Origin: an uncultured Flavobacteriaceae bacterium
GTDB lineage: Bacteria > Bacteroidota > Bacteroidia > Flavobacteriales > Flavobacteriaceae
NCBI GenBank assembly: GCA_947486785.1
Contig: CANKUU010000001.1
Span: forward strand, 372,001 to 436,000
Length of the DNA stretch: 64,000 bases
Direction: 5' to 3'
The translations under genes and the position numbers were made by a program. This document shows, one piece after another, positions 14,616 through 26,001 of this stretch (position 1 is the first letter of the stretch; the number at the start of each line of letters is the position of its first letter). The notes beneath the pieces are model-generated. The model had not been told where the DNA came from, did not search any database, and saw only the letters and a list, made by a program, of their open reading frames with translations.

Positions 14616-15341
14616 ATGAAACGATTTGGCGTTCTATTTTTGATGGCAAATATTTTGAGTTGTTCAACAGACTCACTAGCAGAACAACTAACTCTAAGCA
14701 ATAGTTTTACAAACCAACAAGTTGTTCAAGAAAATGTAATTGCATGCGCTGCTAGTAGTGATGAAGATGAAAGTATTAATGTCTTCTTTTACCCTAGAAA
14801 TGGAGCTACTAACTTTCAATATTTTGAAACTGCAGATGCCAGCGTGGATAAGGATAATTTTGATAACTACATTCCAGTTATTGTGCCTGTACGAGATGTT
14901 TTTAATGGATATCTTAAGAAATTTGAAATTTTTTCTGAAACGGAAAAATGGATTATTGTTTCTTTTGATGAAGGTTTAAAAACTCATTTATCTGCTCCAA
15001 TTCGATTAAAGCATCTTACCAAACCAACCGAATATATTTCTGAAAACGTTTCTATTGATGCGTCTACAAAAATGCCTGTATTTTCTTGGCAAAATGGTAG
15101 GTATGCAGATACAGAAATATATTTTCAGGTAATTTCAAGTATTTACAACAACTTACTTTCAGGTACATATACCTACGAAAAACAATTTCAATACTACAAT
15201 CTAGATTTAGTTGTTTTAAATATCACGACCAGTACACCGCCAGAATTAACTAGTAATTTGCCCTATAAATTTTCGCTGTTAGGGGTAAGTGAAGATAATT
15301 GGGTGAATTTTTTTTCTGAGAAAATATTTACCGTTAACTAG
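14616..15341 (+). CDS. Hypothetical lipoprotein
   Basis: A 241-residue protein with a lipoprotein signal (MANILSCSTD, lipid Cys at about 16). The mature part is beta-rich, with pairs of hydrophobic strands such as KFEIFSETEKWIIVSFDEG and YFQVISSIYNNLLSG, suggesting one or two immunoglobulin-like or lipocalin-like domains. I recognise no family. It starts two bases after the GH113 gene and precedes a BamA-like barrel, so it is likely co-expressed and may be exported with them. Confidence 0.6.
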   Translation: MKRFGVLFLMANILSCSTDSLAEQLTLSNSFTNQQVVQENVIACAASSDEDESINVFFYPRNGATNFQYFETADASVDKDNFDNYIPVIVPVRDVFNGYLKKFEIFSETEKWIIVSFDEGLKTHLSAPIRLKHLTKPTEYISENVSIDASTKMPVFSWQNGRYADTEIYFQVISSIYNNLLSGTYTYEKQFQYYNLDLVVLNITTSTPPELTSNLPYKFSLLGVSEDNWVNFFSEKIFTVN

Positions 15342-15401
15342 GTGATTAAACTGATTTTTTTGTTTAATTTTTACTTTATCTTTGGCTTGTCGAAATAGAT
15401 A

Positions 15402-16667
15402 ATGTTGATGATTAGGACATTTTTTTTTGTGATGTTTTTTATGCTTTTTGCCCGTTGCTTTGCGCAACAGCACTTGGTTTCAAGCTTGAATGTTGAAGGT
15501 AATTCTCGCACAAAAACTGTGTTTCTAAAGAGAATTATTAAGGTAAGGGCCGGAGATCTTTTAGATTCAGTTGTAATTGCAAATGACATTCGTAGATTAA
15601 GTCGCCTTCCGTCAGTTGCCCGTGCCAATTTTGAAGTGATTATCTCAAAAGAATCATGCCAAGTAATTTATCACATAGAAGATAATTTTACTTTAATACC
15701 CTATGCAAACCTTTTTTCATCCTCTAATGATGATTTTGCTTTTCGTGTAGGTTTGCAAGAGTTTAATTTTTTAGGAAGAAATATTACACTAGGTGGCTTT
15801 TATCAACTCGATGTTTTTAATTCAGTTGGGTTAAGTTTTCGGGCGCCTTATCTATTTAGCCCCAAGCTAGGTATTTCTCTAAATTATCATAATATTACTA
15901 CTCAAGAACCAGTTTTTTTTAATAATACTACTGCAGATTATAGATACAACAACAAGGCAGTTGAGGTTTTAGGTTTGTACGAGTTTAATACAAAAAATAG
16001 GGTGGAGTTTGGGTTTAGCCCGTTTACAGAAGAATATTCTTATTTGTCTGGAGCATCTTCTAATGAAGTTCCGAAAAATTTAACGGTAAAGAAGCATCTT
16101 TTAAAACTAATTTATGACTACAACGCTTTAGAATATTTTTATCAGTACGTTGAGGGTTTTAGAAGTAATTTAAATTTGCAATATGTGGGTAGTTCAAGTG
16201 CAAGTGCCCCTAAGTTTATAATAGGTTTTAATGATTTTACATATTTTAGACGTATCGGTGAAAAAGGGAATTGGGCAAGCCGTTTACGTTTAGGTTTAGC
16301 TAGTAATGTAGACACCCCATTTGCTCCTTTTTCGGTAGATAATAATTTAAATATTAGGGGTGTTGGTAATACTATTGATCGCGGTACAGGGGCCGTTGTT
16401 TTTAATACAGAGTATAGGCATACTTTAGTAGATCGGCGATGGTTTGTATTGCAGAGTAATATTTTTGTTGATGGTGGTTCTTGGCGAAACCCAGGGGGAG
16501 GATTGGGCGATTTTGCTGACAGTCAAAATATTCGTATTTACCCAGGTGTTGGGCTACGGTTTATGCATAAAAAGATTTTTAATGCCATATTTCGAATAGA
16601 CTATGGTTATGGGATCACCAAAGAAGGTTCTAAAGGCTTAGTTTTTGGAATAGGTCAATATTTTTGA
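15402..16667 (+). CDS. BamA/TamA-family outer-membrane protein with a single POTRA-like domain
   Basis: A 421-residue protein with a signal peptide (ending ARCFAQ, about residue 22). It has one POTRA-like domain (VEGNSRTKTVFLKRIIKVRAGD, read in two parts, to about residue 95) and a 16-strand-type barrel ending KGLVFGIGQYF. The barrel carries the IRGVG motif and a DRGTG segment, similar to the (V/I)RGY/F element of Omp85 proteins. Full BamA has five POTRA domains, so this is a short Omp85 relative, similar in layout to other small surface-antigen (D15) proteins. The substrate is unknown. It may help insert or export the adjacent lipoprotein or barrel proteins. An ATG two codons downstream is an equally good start. 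Confidence 0.75.
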   Translation: MLMIRTFFFVMFFMLFARCFAQQHLVSSLNVEGNSRTKTVFLKRIIKVRAGDLLDSVVIANDIRRLSRLPSVARANFEVIISKESCQVIYHIEDNFTLIPYANLFSSSNDDFAFRVGLQEFNFLGRNITLGGFYQLDVFNSVGLSFRAPYLFSPKLGISLNYHNITTQEPVFFNNTTADYRYNNKAVEVLGLYEFNTKNRVEFGFSPFTEEYSYLSGASSNEVPKNLTVKKHLLKLIYDYNALEYFYQYVEGFRSNLNLQYVGSSSASAPKFIIGFNDFTYFRRIGEKGNWASRLRLGLASNVDTPFAPFSVDNNLNIRGVGNTIDRGTGAVVFNTEYRHTLVDRRWFVLQSNIFVDGGSWRNPGGGLGDFADSQNIRIYPGVGLRFMHKKIFNAIFRIDYGYGITKEGSKGLVFGIGQYF

Positions 16668-16724
16668 TCGTGCGGTATTCTAAAGATAATTGTTTACCAA
16701 AACGTTAATTAATTTATTTGCTAA

Positions 16725-16757
16725 TTGGTTTACATATTGTTAAGATCTTTAATTTTG
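16725..16757 (+). promoter_or_regulatory. Putative promoter for the amidase gene
   Basis: TAATTTTG at 16750-16757 is a full match to the TAnnTTTG -7 element. TTG at 16725-16727 sits 22 bases upstream, at the loose end of the accepted spacing. The leader to the ATG at 16812 would be about 48 bases. Confidence 0.4.
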
Positions 16758-16811
16758 TTTTAGCTTATAAACTCTTTAGGCATTGTTTTTGAAAAGGCTA
16801 AGCGATATACA

Positions 16812-17879
16812 ATGAAGATGATGTTACGTTTTTTTAAGAATTGCAGTTTAACCATTTTTTTATTTATTTATTTTCAAATTTCTGCGCAAGATAACTTTGG
16901 CTTTGCAAAAGCTGAAAAAGGAGATGGGATACATTCATTACTACGAAGGCAAGGGGTTAACCCTTATGAAGCTTATGATAGGTTTATTGCTTTAAATTAT
17001 GGTAATCTTCGTGATAGCGTTTTTTTGTATGAAGGACGATTGTATAAGATTCCGTTGTTAAAACAAGATACAGTTACTGTTGTAGATACGATTAAGAAAA
17101 AAACCAAAGCGATAAAAACAATACAAGCTAAATCGTATCCTATTTTTGGTGAAAAACATAAAACTGTACTGGCTAAAAGTGATCAACTTAAAAATGCGGT
17201 TTACTATTTAGTTTCAGGGCATGGTGGTCCAGATCCGGGAGCTATGGCGGTACATAACGGAAAGTCTATTGCCGAAGATGAGTATGCATATGACATTACA
17301 CTTCGCTTAGCAAAAGAGTTATTAGCACATGGGGCCGAGGTTTATATTATTATTCAAGATCCCAATGACGGTATTAGAGATGAGCGCTATCTGCCTTTAG
17401 ACCATGATGAGGTTGCTTTGGGTGGTAAGGTTATTCCTCTAAATCAGTCTGCGAGATTAAAGCAACGTGTTACAATTATTAACAATCTACACAGAAAAAA
17501 TAGCGGTAAATTTCAACGATTAATTGTTACTCATGTAGATAGTAGAAGTAAAGGTCAAAATATTGATGTTTTCTTTTATCATCATCAAGAAAGTAAGAAC
17601 GGTAAGAAGTTGGCAGAAAGTATTCATAAAACTTTTGAGAAAAAGTATAAAAAATATCAACCAAATCGCACTTATACAGGTACTTTTCAAGATAGAACGT
17701 CCTTATATTTGGTAAAGAAAACGCATCCAGCGATGACATTTATTGAAATAGGAAACATTAGAAATAAAAAAGATCAAAGGCGAATTTTAGAACCAGATAA
17801 TCGACAGGCTTTAGCGAAATGGATTTCGGAAGGGGTACTTTTAGACTTTAAGGGTGGTGAGATAGGTCGGATAAGATAA
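16812..17879 (+). CDS. N-acetylmuramoyl-L-alanine amidase (Amidase_3) with LysM-like N-terminal part
   Basis: A 355-residue exported protein with a signal peptide ending about QISAQ (residue 25). A region of about 50 residues (KGDGIHSLLRRQGVNPYEAY through LYKIP) is shaped like a LysM peptidoglycan-binding module. The amidase domain begins VSGHGGPDPGA with the zinc His137, followed by the downstream glutamate in KSIAEDEYAYD, the second zinc His in LIVTHVDSRS and the catalytic Glu in TFIEIGNIRN. It would cut the amide between muramic acid and L-alanine during cell-wall turnover or division. It is about 150 bases after the BamA-like gene and has its own candidate promoter. It could be an AmiC-type division amidase. 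Confidence 0.87.
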   Translation: MKMMLRFFKNCSLTIFLFIYFQISAQDNFGFAKAEKGDGIHSLLRRQGVNPYEAYDRFIALNYGNLRDSVFLYEGRLYKIPLLKQDTVTVVDTIKKKTKAIKTIQAKSYPIFGEKHKTVLAKSDQLKNAVYYLVSGHGGPDPGAMAVHNGKSIAEDEYAYDITLRLAKELLAHGAEVYIIIQDPNDGIRDERYLPLDHDEVALGGKVIPLNQSARLKQRVTIINNLHRKNSGKFQRLIVTHVDSRSKGQNIDVFFYHHQESKNGKKLAESIHKTFEKKYKKYQPNRTYTGTFQDRTSLYLVKKTHPAMTFIEIGNIRNKKDQRRILEPDNRQALAKWISEGVLLDFKGGEIGRIR

Positions 17880-17929
17880 TTTTTTTGTTTCGGGTTTTCA
17901 TCTCGAAATTATTTTTCTTTGAATGTAGG

Positions 17930-18646
17930 TTATACTTTATTTTTAAGCAGAATATTTTTTTTGTAGTATTCGTATAATTGTTCGGGGCTTGCACCCATGT
18001 AGTTTTTTAAATGTATAATGCCGTAATGAAATTGTAAACTCAGTTTACCTCGTTCTTCATATCTTCTGGCAGACGTTTTAACTTTGTTAGAAAGCACCTT
18101 AAACCGAGCTAATTTGTATAGTCTTCCTATAAACTCATTGTCTTCATATACGAGGTATTTCTCGTTAAAACCTTTCGATTTTTTGAATAATTCTTTGGTA
18201 ATAAAAAGCGATTGGTCACCTCCACGGCATAGTCTGTTATTAAATTTTGAAAACCAAGCAAAAAATCGTAAAAAAGTACTTTTACTATTAAATTTCATTT
18301 GAAAACAACCGGCAGCGTACCCATTATTTACAGCTTCTAGTATATTACGATCAAAATTTTTAGGAGGAAAAGTGTCAACATGTAAAAAATAAAAGATCTC
18401 ACCTTTGGCATGTTGGGCACCAAAATTCATTTGTTTTGCTCGGCCTTTTTCTGAAATAAAAATTTTTAAAGTATAACGAGAAGCTACTGCAATCGTATCA
18501 TCGAAACTACCGCCATCTACAATTAAAATTTCTTTAATATTTAAAGAAGAACAGTGCGCTGTTAAATACTCTAATAGTTTAGCTACCGAATGCTCTTCAT
18601 TAAGGACAGGAATAATAATACTGAGTTTGGGTTTATTTTGCTTCAT
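17930..18646 (-). CDS. TIGR04283-type arsenosugar-cluster glycosyltransferase (GT2)
   Basis: A 238-residue GT2 enzyme: LSIIIPVLNEEHSVAKLLEYL at the N-terminus (read to position 29), ILIVDGGSFDDT, EKGRAKQMNFGA and FLHVDT (donor and metal binding), then CRGGDQSLF and KYLVYEDNEFIGRL. This combination, especially GRAxQMNxGA and GDQxxF, matches the TIGR04283 subfamily, which NCBI ties to arsenosugar synthesis (rSAM/selenodomain-associated transferase 2). The start overlaps the end of the DUF547 gene by 14 bases. The substrate of this family is not firmly established. Confidence 0.85.
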   Translation of the reverse strand: MKQNKPKLSIIIPVLNEEHSVAKLLEYLTAHCSSLNIKEILIVDGGSFDDTIAVASRYTLKIFISEKGRAKQMNFGAQHAKGEIFYFLHVDTFPPKNFDRNILEAVNNGYAAGCFQMKFNSKSTFLRFFAWFSKFNNRLCRGGDQSLFITKELFKKSKGFNEKYLVYEDNEFIGRLYKLARFKVLSNKVKTSARRYEERGKLSLQFHYGIIHLKNYMGASPEQLYEYYKKNILLKNKV

Positions 18647-19505
18647 TTAAACTCCAATCATATTTAAGGTATTTTAAAGATGCGTTCTCACTTATTTTTA
18701 TAGTAGCAAACAAGTTAATATAATCAATTAAAGAACCATTTTTGGTAAAATCTTTCTTGTACCATTTAAAGATATTAGAAAGTTCTATTTTGTGTTTGGC
18801 AATTAAATTTTTGTCAGAATTATTTATAAAGTCGACCGTAAGTTTTTGTAATTGTGACTCTATTTGGCTAGAGGTAAAGGCTTCATTTAACAACTTCGGA
18901 CACGAGTAAGACGCACAGTTTATGGCGAAATGAACGCGAGGCTCATTCATTTGGCGCAAAACTTTGTGTTCAATATCACCCAAAGAAAATGTTTTTGCCC
19001 CAATTTTTACCCATGCTTTGCTCCAAGGATTTTTAAGATCTTTAATACTTCTTGTAGGATAATTGTTAAGAATTAATTTTACCGTGGCAGCGTTATACAA
19101 GTTAATATAATATGCCAGTTTTTCGTTTTTCGACCAGTTAGTTTTAGGATTGTTTTTTGCCAAATAAAGTAGATAATTATCTAATGTTTCAACTTTAGAT
19201 AATATACCTTTATAATTAACTTCACCTTTAATGTTTACGTAGGTTGCCAAAAGCTTATTCCATACGCTATGGTCAACCCTAGTGTTCGTTTTATCGTTCG
19301 CATTTAATATTGGTGATTCATTAATTTTAATAGCAAGTTGCGCACTATCTTTTTTAGCTTTTACAGCTTTGGCGGGCAGTGGAAGAGTGTCTGAAATCAC
19401 GAATTTTGTACGATCAATTTTGGTTTTAGAAGAACTTGCTTTGTTAACGGTAGGAGCACAAGACAAAGAAAAAAATGTAAAAAGGATAAAAGTTATTTTA
19501 ATCAT
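18633..19505 (-). CDS. DUF547 lipoprotein (second of two)
   Basis: A 290-residue lipoprotein (FFSLSCAP lipobox, lipid Cys16) with an unstructured, lysine-rich linker of about 60 residues and a DUF547 domain. Conserved elements are LAYYINLYNAATVKLIL, NYPTRSIKDL, FSLGDIEHKVLR, NCASYSCPKL and the end YDWSLNEAK, which parallel the shorter DUF547 protein at 11848-12567. DUF547 genes are recurrent neighbours of the TIGR04282/TIGR04283 transferases in Bacteroidetes, but their reaction is unknown. The downstream transferase overlaps it by 14 bases, while a 127-base gap separates it from the phosphorylase gene upstream. Confidence 0.82.
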   Translation of the reverse strand: MIKITFILFTFFSLSCAPTVNKASSSKTKIDRTKFVISDTLPLPAKAVKAKKDSAQLAIKINESPILNANDKTNTRVDHSVWNKLLATYVNIKGEVNYKGILSKVETLDNYLLYLAKNNPKTNWSKNEKLAYYINLYNAATVKLILNNYPTRSIKDLKNPWSKAWVKIGAKTFSLGDIEHKVLRQMNEPRVHFAINCASYSCPKLLNEAFTSSQIESQLQKLTVDFINNSDKNLIAKHKIELSNIFKWYKKDFTKNGSLIDYINLFATIKISENASLKYLKYDWSLNEAK

Positions 19506-19632
19506 TTCAATTTTTGAGATAACAAATTTAAGAGTAAAACAAATGTTCTAATTACTACTTTTAACATAGTAAACCAAAGTAAGAAACATCTTAAAATAGT
19601 ATCCTTTTAAGGATAAATAGCTAAAAATGATC

Positions 19633-20448
19633 TTAGAGTTGTTTTACTAATTCTTTAAAAAGTTTGATCATTTTAGGCTCGGTCTTTTCTGCAATGCTAA
19701 TGATATCTTGAATGTCTACAGGTTGCAGGCAATCTGGATTGCATTCGTCTGTTAAAACAGATACTGCTATAATGGGTAGTCGCAAATGATTTGCAACAAT
19801 CACTTCTGGTACGGTGCTCATACCCACGGCATCGGCACCAAGTGTTTTTAACATTCTATATTCTGCGCGTGTTTCTAGTTGTGGGCCCACAACCGAAGCA
19901 TACACACCTTTTTTAAGCGAAATTTGTTCTGTAGCTGCAATACGCACCAATTTTTCGCGCATAGCAGTATCATATGGGGCCGACATATCGGTAAAGCGAT
20001 CTCCAAATTCTGCAACATTTTTAAACGCTAGAGGTGAACCTCCTTGTAAATTTATATGATCTTCTAATAACATTATATCGCCTTTTTTGAAGTCTAAATT
20101 AATAGCTCCGGCAGCATTAGAGATAAAAAGATTTTTAATGCCTAATTGATGCATAACTCTAATAGGATATGTAATATCCATAAAATCATAACCTTCATAT
20201 AAATGAAAGCGACCTTGCATCACAACAACTTTTTTACCTTCAAAAGAGCCGTAAATTAATTTTCCAGTATGAAACTCAACTGTTGCCAACGGAAAAAAGG
20301 GTATGTGGTTATAATGTGCTTCAATAGAATCTTCTATTTCATGTACTAATTTGCCTAATCCAGTACCGAGAACAATACCAAGTTCAGGAGCTTCAAATCC
20401 TTTGTTTTTTAAGTATTCTACTGATTCGTCTAGTTGTTTTTGTGTCAT
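19633..20448 (-). CDS. punA: Trimeric-type purine nucleoside phosphorylase
   Basis: A 271-residue class-I (trimeric) PNP that splits purine nucleosides with phosphate. Motifs are VLGTGLGKL (phosphate loop), MQGRFHLYEGY, LFISNAAGAIN, and VGPQLETRAEYRML with ADAVGMSTVPEVIVANH. At the base-specificity position the sequence reads VLTDEC with D234, where the human enzyme has N243 in LITNK. In human PNP an N243D change is known to allow adenosine, so this enzyme may accept 6-aminopurines. It sits between TIGR04282 (4-base overlap) and DUF547. In an arsenosugar route a phosphorylase would remove adenine from an arseno-deoxyadenosine. The housekeeping PNP role remains possible. Confidence 0.88.
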   Translation of the reverse strand: MTQKQLDESVEYLKNKGFEAPELGIVLGTGLGKLVHEIEDSIEAHYNHIPFFPLATVEFHTGKLIYGSFEGKKVVVMQGRFHLYEGYDFMDITYPIRVMHQLGIKNLFISNAAGAINLDFKKGDIMLLEDHINLQGGSPLAFKNVAEFGDRFTDMSAPYDTAMREKLVRIAATEQISLKKGVYASVVGPQLETRAEYRMLKTLGADAVGMSTVPEVIVANHLRLPIIAVSVLTDECNPDCLQPVDIQDIISIAEKTEPKMIKLFKELVKQL

Positions 20449-21122
20449 TTTTTCAGGTGTTTTAAAAAAGGCTGAAAGGCAGGCGTTGTAGCTATGTCTT
20501 CATAATGGTCAACATCATTTCTTTGGCTTAAAACCTTTAAATTTTCATTTAATAAGTTGTTTAGCGTGTCTTGCAGAACCGTCTCGGTGCCCCAAGCTTT
20601 GTTCTTAAAAATATCGGTATTAAGAGTAGTCATGCCTAGCAGATAGTAACCCCCATCATCAGCGGGCCCTATGACATAGTTTGCAGTCTTTAAAGCATCA
20701 AAAGCTTCCTCTAAATCAATTTGATTTAAATCATATAAATCACTTCCGATAACGATAATACGTTCAAAGCCAGAGGCAAATCCTTCTTGAAAAGCATTTG
20801 CCATGCGAGCCCCTAAATTAGAGCCTTTTTGTAATTTTTTTTCAAAAATACTGTTTGGCCAAATATCATTTTCCCATATTTCTTCGGAATACCATACTTG
20901 TTTCGCTACATTCAGATTTTTAGTTATGTCGGCGGTGTGGTTTAATAAAAAAGTATAAATTTCTAAGGCACTTTCGGCTCCTACTGTTGCAGCTAATCTA
21001 GTTTTGCATTTACCAAGTTCGGGGTTTCTAGTGAAAATTAGCAATAAGTTTGTAGAGGCGATGTTGTGATAATTTACTGTGGATGCTTCTTTGTTTTTTT
21101 CTTGAGGTAAAATAATGCCCAT
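20445..21122 (-). CDS. TIGR04282-type arsenosugar-cluster transferase
   Basis: A 225-residue nucleotidyl/glycosyltransferase-like protein with LLLIFTRNPELGKCKTRLAA, GSDLYDLNQIDLEEAF, YVIGPADDGGYYLLG and WGTETVLQDTL. These are the marks of TIGR04282 (rSAM/selenodomain-associated transferase 1, also called an arsenosugar biosynthesis glycosyltransferase). Its fold resembles CofC/GlmU-like nucleotidyltransferases. The ATG at 21122 gives an N-terminal extension of about 25 residues before the conserved TNLLLIFTRNP. It overlaps the PNP gene by 4 bases (ATGA type), so the pair is translationally coupled. The biochemical role is not established. Confidence 0.86.
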   Translation of the reverse strand: MGIILPQEKNKEASTVNYHNIASTNLLLIFTRNPELGKCKTRLAATVGAESALEIYTFLLNHTADITKNLNVAKQVWYSEEIWENDIWPNSIFEKKLQKGSNLGARMANAFQEGFASGFERIIVIGSDLYDLNQIDLEEAFDALKTANYVIGPADDGGYYLLGMTTLNTDIFKNKAWGTETVLQDTLNNLLNENLKVLSQRNDVDHYEDIATTPAFQPFLKHLKK

Positions 21123-21177
21123 GAGCTTTATCAGGTTTAGCTAATTAATTTAGAGGATACTAAGATGCTGTTCACTA

Positions 21178-21675
21178 TTAATCATAAACCTTAATACCTT
21201 GGTTTAAATACCTACTCCATTGTTTATTAAAAGTATGAACGCTATCGGTTACGGTAGTTTTATTTTTATAAACAGAATGCCCTTGATTTTTCCATTCAAA
21301 TATACCTCCATATAAATTTTTCACATTCGTGTAGCCAGCTTTTTGAAGCTTTTCACCAATATCTTCAGATCTCACGCCAATAGAGCAATAAACTATAATT
21401 GGAGTGCTCTTGTCTGTAATTTTATGAATTACAGCCTCTTCCTTAAATGATTCGTATCCAACCCAAACGGCATCTTTTAAGTGACTAACTTCATATTCTT
21501 CTTTTTTTCGGGTATCAAAAAATACTGTTTTATCATTGGCTTGCTCCAATTCACTTACAAAGATATAGGGTACGCTGTCAGTATTTAACTGGTTAAGGGC
21601 TTTATCTAATTTTTTTTGCCCTAAAATAGAGGTGTTAACCAATACAAAGGCAATTAAGGAGTACATAAATCTCAT
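21178..21675 (-). CDS. Exported rhodanese-like protein
   Basis: A 165-residue protein with a signal peptide (ending ILGQ, about residue 19) and one rhodanese domain. FFDTRKKEEYEVSHLKDAVWVG leads into it and the active-site loop is VYCSIGVRSEDIG, a six-residue CSIGVRS loop as in sulfur-transfer rhodaneses. It would act in the periplasm. It is the first gene of the leftward run with TIGR04282 and PNP (55-base gap). A possible role is sulfur or thiol handling linked to arsenic chemistry, which is inferred only from its neighbours. Confidence 0.85.
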   Translation of the reverse strand: MRFMYSLIAFVLVNTSILGQKKLDKALNQLNTDSVPYIFVSELEQANDKTVFFDTRKKEEYEVSHLKDAVWVGYESFKEEAVIHKITDKSTPIIVYCSIGVRSEDIGEKLQKAGYTNVKNLYGGIFEWKNQGHSVYKNKTTVTDSVHTFNKQWSRYLNQGIKVYD

Positions 21676-21694
21676 AAATTGTAAAAGTTTATTT

Positions 21695-21702
21695 CAAAGA
21701 TA
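21695..21702 (-). promoter_or_regulatory. Putative -7 element before the rhodanese/TIGR04282 operon
   Basis: CAAAGATA on the plus strand reads TATCTTTG on the minus strand, a full TAnnTTTG match placed 20 bases before the rhodanese start codon. No TTTG/TTG is seen at the expected upstream spacing, so support is partial. Confidence 0.35.
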
Positions 21703-21721
21703 CTATAATGGCGGTCTATAA

Positions 21722-22368
21722 ATAAGGCCCTTGTTCATTAAAAAAATGCTAAAGACCTCGTTCGTAAAACCAATTTGTGTTGCGATGGTTGTTTTTGCCA
21801 AATTATCGCAATCATCAATAGAAAATATGTTGTTATGACTAGTCGTAGTATTATTTTGAACCTTACCACTAGTAGTGTCATTTTTTCGTATTTAGATAGG
21901 TTTATAAGATGCTCAAGTGTTCATAGCTATTGCAACCAATGGTGGCTGTAGCTGTTATCTAAAGGATTTTAAATTGTAGTAATTTTAGTTTTAAGAAATT
22001 ATAAATAATCATGTAGCGAATAGAATTTTAAAAAATGGAGTGTGGTAATCGCACCTTTAGCTTAAGAGATCTAATTTTTTAAAAGTAATAGTGTTATATG
22101 ACAAATTGGTGTTTCAAGTACATGCTATAGCATTATAATTAAAATATTGACGGTTTGCTTAGCAGCCTACTTTACAGCTATGATGACAGAAATCTAAATA
22201 CATTCATAAAATTATTTGTCGGTGTAAGAAGGGCTTGCGACGAATTGTTTTAAAAATATAAAATTTTTTCGCTTGAGATGAATCAATTTTTTTCTTGTAA
22301 ACAGTTGTTGAGATTAATTCATCATAACTTTAGGTATTAAAATGCTGACAATCAAAAAGTTATTGAAA
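21722..22368. other. Long non-coding gap, nothing recognised
   Basis: About 650 bases between the rhodanese gene and the tRNA terminator contain no open frame of useful length on either strand and no repeat, element or hairpin that I can name. A cluster of short ACTAGT/GACTAGTC-like words occurs near 21836-21880. It may be a decayed gene, an untranslated RNA or simple spacer. Confidence 0.5.
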
Positions 22369-22394
22369 CAAAAAATCCTCGCATTTGCGAGGAT
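22369..22394 (-). terminator. Rho-independent terminator of tRNA-Phe
   Basis: A perfect stem ATCCTCGC/GCGAGGAT with a 4-base loop (22375-22394) is followed on the minus strand by a run of T (AAAAAA at 22369-22374 on the plus strand). It begins 6 bases after the tRNA 3' end. Confidence 0.85.
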
Positions 22395-22400
22395 CTATTG

Positions 22401-22473
22401 TGGTGCCTCCAGGAATCGAACCAGGGACACATGGATTTTCAGTCCATTGCTCTACCAACTGAGCTAAGGCACC
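22401..22473 (-). tRNA. tRNA-Phe (anticodon GAA)
   Basis: A 73-base cloverleaf on the minus strand. The acceptor stem GGTGCCT pairs with AGGCACC, the D arm is TAGCTCAGTTGGTAGAGC, the anticodon loop CTGAAAATC reads GAA, and the T loop is TTCGATTC. The discriminator base is A, and CCA is not encoded because the next bases are CAA. It stands alone with its own promoter and terminator. Confidence 0.96.
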
Positions 22474-22490
22474 ATACCCGTAAGGGGCTG

Positions 22491-22521
22491 CAAATATAAT
22501 TTCAAATTTAAGATATACAAA
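22491..22521 (-). promoter_or_regulatory. Promoter of tRNA-Phe
   Basis: On the minus strand TTTG (22521-22518) is followed after exactly 19 bases by TATATTTG (22498-22491), a perfect Bacteroidetes -33/-7 pair. Transcription would begin near 22484, about ten bases before the mature tRNA 5' end at 22473. The coaX gene reads away on the other strand. Confidence 0.8.
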
Positions 22522-22574
22522 CAAAAACATAAAAAAAGGTTCTCTTTTCTTTTACATTTTATAATATTTGTAAT

Positions 22575-23303
22575 ATGAACTTAATTATAGATGTTGGCAA
22601 TACCCTTGTGAAATTAGGGGTTTACGACAAAGAAAAGCTTGTTTATTATGAGGTTTTAAAGAGTAAATATTTTTTTGAACAATTAAAAAAAATATTTTCT
22701 CGCTATTCAGCAATTAATTGGGCAATTGTTTCTGCCGTGGGCAATTTAGAGCAAAAAGACTTAGTAGCGTTATCTGTTTTTTGTAAAGTTCATATACTGA
22801 GTAACGATTCAAAAGTTCCTTTTAAGAACTCATACGCTACACCATATTCGCTCGGTGTAGACCGCATTGCTTTGGCTACGGCAGCTTTTTATCATAACCC
22901 AACGGCAAATACTTTGGTGATAGATGCAGGTACTTGTATCACATATGACATGGTTAATGATTATGGAGAGTATTTGGGTGGGGCAATTTCGCCGGGTATA
23001 AAAATGCGTTACAAAGCACTTCATAACCAGACTAAGAAATTACCCTTTCTTGAACTAGACGACCCCATAGACCTTATTGGTAACTCAACTCAAAGTAGTA
23101 TTCATAGCGGTGTAGTTAATGGTGTTAAAGCGGAAATCGATGGAATAATTGATCAATATGAAAAGCGTTTTAAAGATTTAACAGTTATTTTAACAGGCGG
23201 CGACGCCCATTTTTTGTCAGAACGATTAAAAAATACCATATTTGCGGATTCCAAATTTCTCCTAAAAGGATTAAACTTTTTGTTGGAATACAATAAGCAC
23301 TAA
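22575..23303 (+). CDS. coaX: Type III pantothenate kinase
   Basis: CoaX phosphorylates pantothenate, the first step of coenzyme A synthesis, without the feedback control of CoaA. The 242-residue protein begins MNLIIDVGNTLVKLGVYD (ASKHA phosphate-1 motif DVGNT). It has GVDRIALATAAF, the conserved VIDAGTCITYDMV (adenosine/metal Asp) and GGAISPGIKMRYKAL. It heads a rightward gene run and ends one base before the next gene, so the following outer-membrane protein is co-transcribed. Confidence 0.96.
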   Translation: MNLIIDVGNTLVKLGVYDKEKLVYYEVLKSKYFFEQLKKIFSRYSAINWAIVSAVGNLEQKDLVALSVFCKVHILSNDSKVPFKNSYATPYSLGVDRIALATAAFYHNPTANTLVIDAGTCITYDMVNDYGEYLGGAISPGIKMRYKALHNQTKKLPFLELDDPIDLIGNSTQSSIHSGVVNGVKAEIDGIIDQYEKRFKDLTVILTGGDAHFLSERLKNTIFADSKFLLKGLNFLLEYNKH

Positions 23304-24590
23304 ATGGTTAGAAAAATTGTAATTGCAATAGCCTTCATATTAGCTATTGGTTTAAACGCTCAAGATGGTTCAGTTTCGCCATACTCTTATTTTGGTATTG
23401 GTAATGTTAGAGCTAATAGTTCAATCGAAAATCAAATGATGGGGGGCATAGGTATTTATACAGATAGTATACATGCTAGTTTGTCAAATCCTTCAGGATA
23501 TTCCAAATTAAGACTTACCACCTACGCTGGGGGTATATCGCGAAAAGAGCTAAGCTTAAAAAGTGCATCTGCAAGAGAGAGTAGTAGTGTTAGTTCCTTA
23601 AACTATTTATCCATTGGTTTTCCTATTGCTAAGCGATTAGGTCTCGGTTTTGGATTAAACAGGCGTTCTGCAGTTGGATATAATTTTGAATCAACTGTTT
23701 CAGTTTCAAATGGAGACAATAGCTCTTCCGATGTTCGAAATTTGTACTCCGGTAGTGGTGGCCTTAATAAGGTTTATGTCTCTTTGGGTTACGAATTAAT
23801 TAAAAATTTAAGCATCGGAGTTACGGCTAATTATAATTTTGGCAACTTTGATAATTCGCGAGCGCAAACTATTGAGAATGTTGAGCTTGGAACCTCAGAT
23901 AATAGATTTTCTAGTGTTTCAGGGGTGGATTTAAACTATGCGTTAAATTACGAAAACAAAATCAGTGATAAGCATACATTTTATACCTCTTTACGTGTAA
24001 ATACGCAGGCCAACCTTATCTCTCGTAATAGGAGAACAATTAATTCTTTTTCATCCACTTCTGGATCTGTTAGAGAAGAATTTGAGGTTGACCTTACAGC
24101 TACTGGTTTAGACGAGACAGATTTAAAAATACCTGCAACTACTACTTTTGGTTTAGGTTTTGGGGAAAACAAAAAATGGTTTTTAGGGGGCGAGTATAGT
24201 TTTCAAGAATTGAACACTTTTTCTAATGTCTTTATAGAGGTTGATGATTTTTCTTATCAGGATGCCAAGACATTTGCTCTGGGTGGCTATTATATTCCTG
24301 ATTATACTTCTTTTACAAGTTATTTTAAGCGAATAATCTATAGGGCAGGAATGCGCTATAATCAAACAGGCATGGTAGTAAATCAAAAGGAAATTAATAA
24401 TTTTGGCATAACTTTTGGAGTTGGACTACCGCTAGCCACTAATACGGGGAGTTTTTCTAACGTAAATGTTGGATTCGAAATTGGTCGACGTGGAACAACA
24501 GCTGCTGGATTAATTGAGGAGACCTATTTTAAGTTTAACGTAGGGCTATCTTTAAATGATAGATGGTTTCAAAAAAGAAAAATAAACTAA
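23304..24590 (+). CDS. Outer-membrane beta-barrel protein downstream of coaX
   Basis: A 428-residue exported protein with a signal peptide ending GLNAQ (about residue 19). It then has a long series of amphipathic strands with YSYFGIGNVR and LGLGFGLNRRSAVGYNF near the start, which is a FadL-like or porin-like look. It starts directly after the coaX stop. This coaX/OMP/TPR/LptC order is common in flavobacteria, so a role in outer-membrane assembly or lipid transport is plausible. I cannot name the family. The C-terminus (FQKRKIN) is not the usual aromatic barrel end. Confidence 0.65.
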   Translation: MVRKIVIAIAFILAIGLNAQDGSVSPYSYFGIGNVRANSSIENQMMGGIGIYTDSIHASLSNPSGYSKLRLTTYAGGISRKELSLKSASARESSSVSSLNYLSIGFPIAKRLGLGFGLNRRSAVGYNFESTVSVSNGDNSSSDVRNLYSGSGGLNKVYVSLGYELIKNLSIGVTANYNFGNFDNSRAQTIENVELGTSDNRFSSVSGVDLNYALNYENKISDKHTFYTSLRVNTQANLISRNRRTINSFSSTSGSVREEFEVDLTATGLDETDLKIPATTTFGLGFGENKKWFLGGEYSFQELNTFSNVFIEVDDFSYQDAKTFALGGYYIPDYTSFTSYFKRIIYRAGMRYNQTGMVVNQKEINNFGITFGVGLPLATNTGSFSNVNVGFEIGRRGTTAAGLIEETYFKFNVGLSLNDRWFQKRKIN

Positions 24591-24627
24591 TTTAAATTTA
24601 GTACATTAACCACATAAAATTAAATAT

Positions 24628-26001
24628 ATGAAAACGAAACTCTACTTTACGGCGATTATGCTTCTGGGTAGTATGGCGATTAGCAATGCTCAAGCTCAAA
24701 ATACTGAGTGTATGACTAATCTATCAATCTACACAGAACACGTAAAAGTTAAAAATTATGATGCAGCATATACCCCTTGGAAAATGGTTTATGAGACTTG
24801 TCCTGAATCTAACTGGGCAAACTTTGCATATGGTGAGCGTATTTTAAAAGATAAGATTAAGAAATCTTCGGGTGCAGACAAAGACGCGTTAATCAACGAT
24901 CTTTTGGAGCTATTTGATTCTAGTATAAAATTTTTTCCTAAGAAGACTAGTAAAGCAAAGGTGACCATAAAAAAAGTAGAGTTAAAAAACAAACATAAAA
25001 TTATTTCAGAAGAAGAAATCTATAGTGCTTTGGGAACTGCTTTTAAAGAAGATAAAGTTAATTTTAAAAATCCAAGAGCACTATATTTATATTTTTCTAG
25101 TTTGGTAGATCTGCACAAAGCAGGTAAAAAAGATCTTCAAGAGGTTTTTGATGTATATGATGAGGTTACTGAAAAAATTGAAGTTGAAAATAAAAAGTTG
25201 ACAGATGCGATTGCAAAACTTCTACCAAAAGAAGAGGCAGGTACTTTAACTACGAAAGAAAAGAAAAAATTAAAAGGGTACAATACTAATTCTGGGTCTT
25301 TTGGTAAAATCGCTGGTAGTATTGATTCAAAACTTGGACCCCTTGCAGATTGTAGTAATTTAATTCCTCTATACGAGAAGTCTTTTGAAGAAAAGAAGGG
25401 TGATATCGTTTGGGTTAAACGTGCGGTGGGTTTAATGTTTAATAAAGAATGTACAGATGACCCTATGTTTCAGAAACTATTTGAAGCACAACTAGCGCTA
25501 GACCCATCTGCAGATGCCTACGTTTATGGGGGTACATTAAAAATGAAAAACGGTAATTCTTCTGGTGCTTTAGCAGATTTTGATAAGGCTTTAAGTTTAG
25601 AGACTGATTCGGATAAAAGATCAAAGATCGCTTACAAAGTTGCTGTTATCAACAAGCGTAAAGGAAGTAAATCTACCGCTAGAAAATACGCTCAAAAAGC
25701 TATTGATGCCAATCCTGCAAACGGAAAAGCATATTTACTAATAGCAAGCTTGTACGCTGGTAGTGCGAATGCATGTGGTAACACTACTTTTGAAAAACGT
25801 GCCATTTATTGGAAAGCTGCTGAAATGGCGAGAAAAGCTGGTAGGGTAGACCCTTCATTAGGTGGTAGAGCAAACCAAGCGGTAAAAAGTTACATGGCGA
25901 AAGCGCCAACTAAACAAATGATTTTTACAGAGGGTATGGCTGGTAAAACAGTAACCTTTAATTGTTGGGTAGGTGGTAGCGTAAAAGTGCCAAACTTATA
26001 A
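24628..26001 (+). CDS. TPR-repeat exported protein
   Basis: A 457-residue protein with a signal peptide ending AQAQ (about residue 24) and helical repeats. Clear TPR units lie in the C-terminal half, for example ALADFDKALSLETDSDKRS and ARKYAQKAIDANPANGKAYL. The middle part (about 110-230) is charged and probably coiled. Cysteines at the N-terminus (NTECMTNL) and near the end (FNCWVGG) might form a disulfide. It overlaps lptC by one base (TAATG), indicating coupling. It is probably a periplasmic scaffold working with the neighbouring outer-membrane protein and LptC; its function is not established. Confidence 0.8.
   Translation: MKTKLYFTAIMLLGSMAISNAQAQNTECMTNLSIYTEHVKVKNYDAAYTPWKMVYETCPESNWANFAYGERILKDKIKKSSGADKDALINDLLELFDSSIKFFPKKTSKAKVTIKKVELKNKHKIISEEEIYSALGTAFKEDKVNFKNPRALYLYFSSLVDLHKAGKKDLQEVFDVYDEVTEKIEVENKKLTDAIAKLLPKEEAGTLTTKEKKKLKGYNTNSGSFGKIAGSIDSKLGPLADCSNLIPLYEKSFEEKKGDIVWVKRAVGLMFNKECTDDPMFQKLFEAQLALDPSADAYVYGGTLKMKNGNSSGALADFDKALSLETDSDKRSKIAYKVAVINKRKGSKSTARKYAQKAIDANPANGKAYLLIASLYAGSANACGNTTFEKRAIYWKAAEMARKAGRVDPSLGGRANQAVKSYMAKAPTKQMIFTEGMAGKTVTFNCWVGGSVKVPNL

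Follow-up and report, generated by a model that had tools for sequence, protein, structure and literature searches.

The window analysed here, a 64,000-nucleotide stretch of DNA from an uncultured Flavobacteriaceae bacterium (contig C1:372001-436000 of genome G000; 3.57 Mb, 136 contigs, 99.8% complete), contains a run of five minus-strand open reading frames at 17930-21675. The run encodes, first gene first, an exported rhodanese-domain protein, a CofC-like TIGR04282 protein, a purine nucleoside phosphorylase (PNP), a DUF547 protein and a TIGR04283 glycosyltransferase. It is best read as the second half of a split arsenosugar-type locus and not as an ArsS-free pathway. The other half lies on contig C25 of the same genome, where the radical S-adenosylmethionine (SAM) enzyme ArsS follows a SusC/SusD pair and a sodium-solute symporter, and the genome has no recognisable gene for the methyltransferase ArsM. 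The system is a variant of the known arsenosugar pathway, new in lacking ArsM and in carrying an importer beside ArsS.

ArsS lies on a second contig

A first-pass annotation of the window had proposed that ArsS either lies elsewhere in the genome or is dispensable to a different pathway. ArsS and ArsM are confirmed to be missing from the run, and the first proposal holds, with ArsS found at C25:35662-36567 (TIGR04167, 437.1 bits, cut-off 300). ArsS and the transferases are thus unlinked in G000. The enzyme keeps an intact CxxxCxxC radical-SAM motif and C-terminal CYGC motif. Its operon (locus L003) comprises, in order, a divergent TIGR04282 protein, SusC, SusD (PF12771), the sodium-solute symporter, a metallophosphoesterase fused to the AhpD-like protein TIGR04169, and ArsS, with a TetR-type regulator gene after it.

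The sample consists of 149 Flavobacteriaceae genomes, evenly drawn, with at least 90% completeness requested. ArsS scores above its cut-off in 119 of them, TIGR04283 in 111 and the NF045521 rhodanese in 101. ArsS and TIGR04283 are both present in 106 genomes, ArsS alone in 13, TIGR04283 alone in 5 and neither in 25 (Fisher p 2.8e-14), and no more than 30 kb separates the two in 79/106 genomes with both. This strong co-occurrence and linkage place the cluster with ArsS, so that an ArsS-free pathway is not the main story.

ArsS and the cluster are apart in 27 genomes, some merely through contig ends. Twenty of these, including G000, group into a single clade of the ArsS tree (SH-like approximate likelihood ratio test support 98), from which three fall outside in a concatenated tree. 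Several genomes with separated halves place the cluster near amidase and CoaX genes and ArsS amid patatin, TetR, heptosyltransferase and PurD genes. Importer, ArsS and window-type genes share one run in G042 (Psychroserpens algicola), G065, G067, G077, G096, G130 and G146. The window cluster and the C25 operon are a locus of the G042 type cut in two.

The first-pass annotation had named, as evidence to the contrary, a complete arsenosugar locus elsewhere with its own TIGR04282 and TIGR04283 copies and a cluster conserved without ArsS. The ArsS locus does have its own TIGR04282 relative, but this protein scores below the family cut-off and lacks the KTR motif; the window TIGR04283 protein is the only copy above cut-off in G000; and the cluster occurs without intact ArsS in 5/149 genomes, one of which retains an ArsS remnant. 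The KTR motif is present in the main-type TIGR04282 protein of 100/107 genomes compared and absent from the divergent type in all 32 genomes compared, and the divergent copy was rejected as proof of a complete second locus. The KTR-less paralogue travels with ArsS, often with the importer too. A second TIGR04283-type match occurs in 13/149 genomes; at L060, L061, L062 and L258 it stands apart from window-type genes, in two cases near a distant DUF547 protein.

ArsM is missing from the whole assembly

The absence of ArsM, noted earlier for the window, extends to the entire G000 assembly by both models. NF038099 (arsenosugar ArsM) reaches at best 31.2 bits (cut-off 400; positive control G023, 568 bits), and NF008823 at best 45.7 bits (cut-off 263) in a protein scoring above the cut-offs for UbiE/MenG. 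ArsM is also absent from the genus-mate G046 (NF038099, best 28.0 bits), and across the 15 ArsM-less ArsS genomes NF038099 yields at best 40.2 bits. Relatives with the same flanks carry ArsM after PNP in L037 (G023), L049 (G029), L063 (G010) and L259 (G087). A tblastn search of window 15001-25000 with ArsM returned nothing at E 1, with no relic in the PNP-DUF547 gap, and no ArsM remnant turned up in cluster loci fetched for the 15 ArsM-less ArsS genomes and the five ArsS-less genomes.

Most ArsS-bearing relatives encode a locus methyltransferase of about 321-340 amino acids, represented by the G023 protein (NF038099, 568.7 bits, cut-off 400); the 79 such proteins available in fetched loci, out of 94 genomes with this type, share 74-100% identity with it. 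This arsenosugar-ArsM type matches NF008823 at 112-133 bits in 94 genomes, 94/94 with ArsS. A canonical-type match to NF008823 occurs in 17 genomes, 15 of them above cut-off, and four genomes have both types. With both types counted as ArsM, including the canonical copy of G105 that has an internal stop, ArsM is present in 104/119 ArsS genomes and 15 have neither type. Lacking ArsM, the lineage of G000 cannot make dimethylated arsenic by the known route.

An importer beside ArsS associates with missing ArsM

The ArsS neighbourhood was read in 118 of the 119 ArsS genomes, the ArsS of G057 lying just below the identity limit. SusC, SusD and the symporter occupy the ArsS run of 11/15 ArsM-less ArsS genomes (G000, G042, G046, G065, G066, G067, G077, G096, G129, G130 and G146) and are present in 11/104 ArsM-bearing ones, where the set sits within the ArsS run in 10 and forms a separate operon in G074 (Fisher p 6e-7). 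The earlier annotation covered only the window and recorded the lack of ArsM there, and the importer that often accompanies it was out of its view. The symporter alone occurs in three further ArsM-bearing genomes (G002, G105 and G142). Counting these and G056 as importers gives 12/15 versus 14/104 (p 3e-7), the 14 being a count for which the ABC-type importer was not sought systematically in ArsM-bearing genomes. In place of the SusCD-symporter set, the ArsM-less G056 has a receptor of the TonB type, an ABC importer whose binding protein matches NF008633 (384.8 bits, cut-off 203), and a second protein of the radical SAM kind (L022:5191-12730).

The symporter is present in 25/149 genomes, all 25 with ArsS and 24 with the symporter in the ArsS run. 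A symporter profile identified 335 relatives in public genomes; among the best 80 of these loci, ArsS shares the run with the symporter in 78, and the remaining two start at a contig end. These loci occur in Maribacter, Cellulophaga, Winogradskyella, Polaribacter, Aequorivita, Gillisia and others, and several importer carriers are cultured strains. Carriers without ArsM include Maribacter ulvicola, Winogradskyella sediminis and Psychroserpens algicola. NF038099 was searched in 50 of the best 80 symporter genomes, mostly isolates: 20 score above cut-off, 3 have a weaker, canonical-ArsM-sized match (95-98 bits) and 27 have neither at E 1e-20, a proportion that is not a family-wide rate, the 80 loci having been chosen by likeness to the G000 symporter. 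Among these genomes, Winogradskyella psychrotolerans D3R19 is without ArsM and strain E3R09 has it in the locus, and the two strains share importer and ArsS.

Because the genomes are related, the association was tested on a tree built from concatenated ArsS, PNP, TIGR04282 and rhodanese sequences (117 rows; the long rows G002 and G057 left out). The ArsS tree alone has stars on only 6/116 inner branches, with no more than 3 pairs falling on these, and was set aside for this concatenation. ArsM status changes at least 12 times on the concatenated tree, and repeatedly among importer carriers. Among 12 independent pairs, the importer differs in the same way in 5.6 (mean), in the other way in 0.0 and not at all in 6.4 (median p 0.031). 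Near relatives share the importer and differ in ArsM in G067/G064, G065/G011, G042/G033+G063 and G130/G062, consistent with a gain of the importer followed by loss of ArsM.

An alternative that we consider unlikely is that an unrelated methyltransferase replaces ArsM in the cell and the importer carries something else, such as a nutrient or the acceptor of the pathway. The 11 ArsM-bearing genomes with the importer show that it is useful when ArsM is present, and a 271-amino-acid methyltransferase on contig C7 of G000 passes no NCBIfam cut-off. That protein, though, reaches 44.4 bits with NF008823 (cut-off 263), and neither half of the pathway in G000 contains a methyltransferase gene (elsewhere, not every unnamed ArsS neighbour was identified). 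A replacement enzyme would also leave the association of the importer with missing ArsM unexplained.

Transporter likenesses and related clusters

The nearest solved relatives of the symporter are a choline transporter (weak, E 1.3e-7) and, at weak scores, glucose transporters; that of SusC is BT_2264. The choline-transporter likeness is a lead, no more, given the resemblance of arsenocholine to choline and of arsenobetaine to betaine. A SusC/SusD pair is likewise combined with an inner-membrane sodium symporter in the polysaccharide utilisation loci of marine Flavobacteriia. Unlike them, the ArsS run of G000 has no glycoside hydrolase, lyase or sulfatase, and the partner of SusCD is a radical SAM enzyme for C-As bonds. 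Among the matches listed in a literature search by titles and abstract openings, with subscription journals sparsely covered, nothing concerned ArsM-less ArsS loci or their importer.

Arsenate enters cells via phosphate carriers. Near ArsM, PitA (PF01384) occurs in 8 genomes and PstSCAB in G068, 9/9 ArsM-bearing; apart from the SusCD set, these are the transporters identified near ArsM, where not every unnamed gene was identified. Among ArsS genomes in which the PNP-to-glycosyltransferase stretch was seen, PitA is present in 7/70 ArsM-bearing versus 0/12 ArsM-less genomes, too few for a test. ArsM-bearing clusters may thus carry an inlet for inorganic arsenic, and ArsM-less ones mostly an inlet for organic matter.

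A fatty-acid-hydroxylase-family protein (~295 amino acids; e.g. L026:5665-6546) occurs in the ArsS run of 45/118 genomes, often between the PNP or ArsM gene and the DUF547 gene. Its best NCBIfam match is the ornithine lipid hydroxylase OlsE (87.9 bits, 475 needed). Its presence hints at a lipid end product. Neither half of the G000 locus encodes this protein.

A proposed ArsM-independent route

The pattern of inlets, together with the importer and ArsM counts, is the reason for the mechanism that we moderately favour. An imported methylated arsenical would feed ArsS, and the phosphorylase, nucleotidyltransferase-like protein and glycosyltransferase of the window would finish the sugar. SusC/SusD, the sodium-solute symporter and the metallophosphoesterase would import and trim a methylated organoarsenical from algae or other microbes. 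ArsS would then add the 5'-deoxyadenosyl group of SAM to dimethylated arsenic, a biochemistry described in other work (PMC12159101, a review, and PMC8552651).

Family membership suggests the roles of the PNP, the CofC-like protein and the GT2-type enzyme. PNP would cut adenine from the ArsS product to give arsenoribose-1-phosphate, which the TIGR04282 protein would activate. The acceptor to which the TIGR04283 glycosyltransferase would pass the dimethylarsinoyl-ribosyl unit would probably be glycerol or the head group of a lipid. The rhodanese and DUF547 proteins would act outside the cytoplasm. Gene content, the split, co-occurrence of the cluster with ArsS, the lack of ArsM, and the importer's linkage to ArsS and association with missing ArsM are observed; for the organism of G000, we infer each of these chemical steps and the identity of the imported compound.

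The ArsM-ArsS arsenosugar pathway (Synechocystis; NF038099, TIGR04167, TIGR04282 and TIGR04283) shares ArsS, TIGR04282, TIGR04283, PNP, DUF547 and TIGR04169 with this system, and the gene order matches that of ArsM-bearing arsenosugar relatives where the halves are adjacent. G000 differs from that pathway in having no ArsM of either type, two loci, and the SusC-SusD-symporter-phosphoesterase set beside ArsS.

More tentatively, and with somewhat less confidence than we give the route itself, the SusC/SusD-symporter set may be a dedicated route for organoarsenicals across the outer membrane, coupled directly to ArsS, in which case many marine Flavobacteriaceae would use scavenged methylated arsenic and would have repeatedly dropped ArsM. 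An arsenosugar or arsenolipid as the product of scavenging belongs to the same tentative reading.

Several observations weigh against import-fed synthesis. Support for the trees is moderate and the test made on them marginal (p 0.031-0.25), the importer is the same in half of the independent pairs, and the counts cannot separate gain from loss. The presence of the importer in 11 ArsM-bearing genomes means that importer and ArsM are not exclusive. In the ArsM-less G043, G058 and G083, the ArsS run holds neither a SusCD-symporter set nor a TonB-plus-ABC importer like that of G056, and the symporter is without a match genome-wide. Nothing in the importer sequences points to an arsenical substrate, and SusC/SusD pairs usually import molecules larger than dimethylarsinate. 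Two further points, the near-universality of PNP and the genomes that keep the cluster without intact ArsS, are taken up below.

PNP is a single match in G000 at E 1e-30 and occurs in 139/149 genomes, with ArsS or not, so it must serve purine salvage as well and is weak evidence for an arsenical role. At the base-recognition position, 6-oxopurine PNPs have Asn. Asp234 of the window PNP was considered as a sign of adenine use and rejected as uninformative: all 123 PNPs compared have Asp, among them 14 in genomes that lack both ArsS and the cluster, as well as a second copy in G030.

Genomes that keep the cluster without intact ArsS

Five genomes (G001, G016, G034, G089 and G113) retain the rhodanese, TIGR04282, PNP and glycosyltransferase genes without intact ArsS, three of them with DUF547. 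All five also lack arsenosugar-type ArsM; G089 has a methyltransferase of the canonical ArsM type below cut-off (229.9 bits). G016 carries a broken ArsS remnant (G016:C7:79733-80042, 54.7 bits) and a second piece with an internal stop. A search for an ArsS remnant in G001, G034, G089 and G113 found none (best 37.3 bits). The TIGR04282, rhodanese and glycosyltransferase genes look constrained in four of the five, although this constraint may predate the loss of ArsS. Either ArsS was lost in these genomes or the cluster is useful without it.

These genomes bear on two further explanations. In the first, ArsS and the cluster act on a non-arsenic substrate that enters through SusCD and the symporter, and owe the arsenosugar name to their relatives. 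The five genomes suggest that some of the cluster genes can have another use, and the named neighbours in G000 include no arsenic gene beyond ArsS and its usual companions. We nonetheless judge a non-arsenic substrate improbable. ArsS is highly conserved between ArsM-bearing and ArsM-less genomes (90% identity between G000 and G023), with the radical-SAM and C-terminal cysteine motifs intact in 15/15 ArsM-less ArsS genomes, which argues for the same reaction. The occurrence of ArsM in 104/119 ArsS genomes, and of ArsS in 94/94 genomes with arsenosugar-type ArsM, also speaks against it.

In the second, the pathway is decaying, with ArsM lost first and ArsS next, and the cluster is kept mainly for the genome's PNP. 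Such a series would account for the broken ArsS of G016 and for the four genomes that lack ArsS and still hold the other genes, and PNP is single-copy in nearly all genomes. Decay is nevertheless very improbable, given that G000 and ten relatives have open frames for ArsS, SusC, SusD, the symporter, the rhodanese, TIGR04282, PNP and the glycosyltransferase. Between G000 and G046, the proportion of non-synonymous differences in ArsS is 0.027 versus 0.81 for synonymous ones, so that non-synonymous changes are far rarer and synonymous ones saturated; the glycosyltransferase gives 0.244 versus 0.77. The constraint in four of the five ArsS-less genomes also counts against decay, with the same reservation about its age. 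The import-fed route to ArsS remains the reading that we prefer.

The window run and its proteins

The first-pass description of the run stands, with five named genes reading leftward and overlaps of 14 bases between the glycosyltransferase and DUF547 genes (18633-18646) and 4 bases between the PNP and TIGR04282 genes (20445-20448). Every family assignment scores above its curated cut-off (Table 1). The ends are as clear as had been claimed, with a convergent amidase gene on one side and, on the other, 724 bases (21676-22399) that contain no listed open reading frame of 80 amino acids or more before tRNA-Phe, beyond which lies a type III pantothenate kinase (CoaX) gene. An Rfam scan covering this stretch gave no match besides the tRNA. 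A scan for promoter-like sites found no excess (22 versus 22.2 in shuffles), and the same scan gave 5 terminator-like sites versus 3.2. Many Flavobacteriaceae genomes share this gene order, whether ArsM and additional genes are present or not, and it is therefore not a chance arrangement.

The solved relatives of the TIGR04283 protein are polyprenyl-phosphate sugar transferases. The protein resembles mycofactocin MftF but reaches only 33.4 bits against the MftF cut-off of 280. The TIGR04282 protein similarly resembles the F420 enzyme CofC but scores only 30.4 bits (cut-off 105); the single solved structure related to it at E 0.01 or better is 3cgx, a putative nucleotide-diphospho-sugar transferase. 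The rhodanese protein carries a VYCSIGVRS active-site loop. The DUF547 domain is modelled with a predicted local distance difference test score of 95-99 over residues 81-290; comparison of this structure with the PDB gave no match at E 1 or better (best E 1.7), and no function was inferred from it.

Table 1. Positions of the window features, of the ArsS operon genes and of phosphate-carrier loci in related clusters (positions without a locus prefix are those of the window)
Feature	Position	Strand	Match or remark
TIGR04283 family glycosyltransferase (GT2-type)	17930..18646	-	TIGR04283 232.5 bits, cut-off 182; PF00535
DUF547 protein, lipoprotein-like N-terminus (judged by eye)	18633..19505	-	PF04784 99.6 bits, cut-off 27
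PNP-DUF547 intergenic gap, ArsM site in relatives with the same flanks	19506..19632	-	no ArsM remnant
Purine nucleoside phosphorylase (PNP)	19633..20448	-	NF006054 341.8 bits, cut-off 218
TIGR04282 family CofC-like nucleotidyltransferase-type protein	20445..21122	-	TIGR04282 211.6 bits, cut-off 134
Exported rhodanese-domain protein	21178..21675	-	NF045521 rhoda_near_glyco 207.3 bits, cut-off 145
N-acetylmuramoyl-L-alanine amidase gene	16812-17879		convergent, downstream end of run
tRNA-Phe	22400-22473		upstream of run
Divergent TIGR04282 paralogue	L003:1258-1956		105.8 bits, below cut-off 134
SusC, SusD, symporter	L003:2030-8156
ArsS	L003:9521-10576
PitA locus in ArsM-bearing cluster	L049:7133-8251
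PstSCAB locus in ArsM-bearing cluster	L099:2157-5568

Implications

Arsenosugars and arsenolipids are among the major forms of organic arsenic in seaweed and plankton; to our knowledge, little is known of their producers besides algae and cyanobacteria. If the proposed route holds, many Flavobacteriaceae (Maribacter, Winogradskyella, Polaribacter and others) would tie a nutrient-type importer to the formation of C-As bonds. The presence of arsM alone would then misjudge the capacity to make arsenosugars, and organoarsenic would be a resource traded between microbes.

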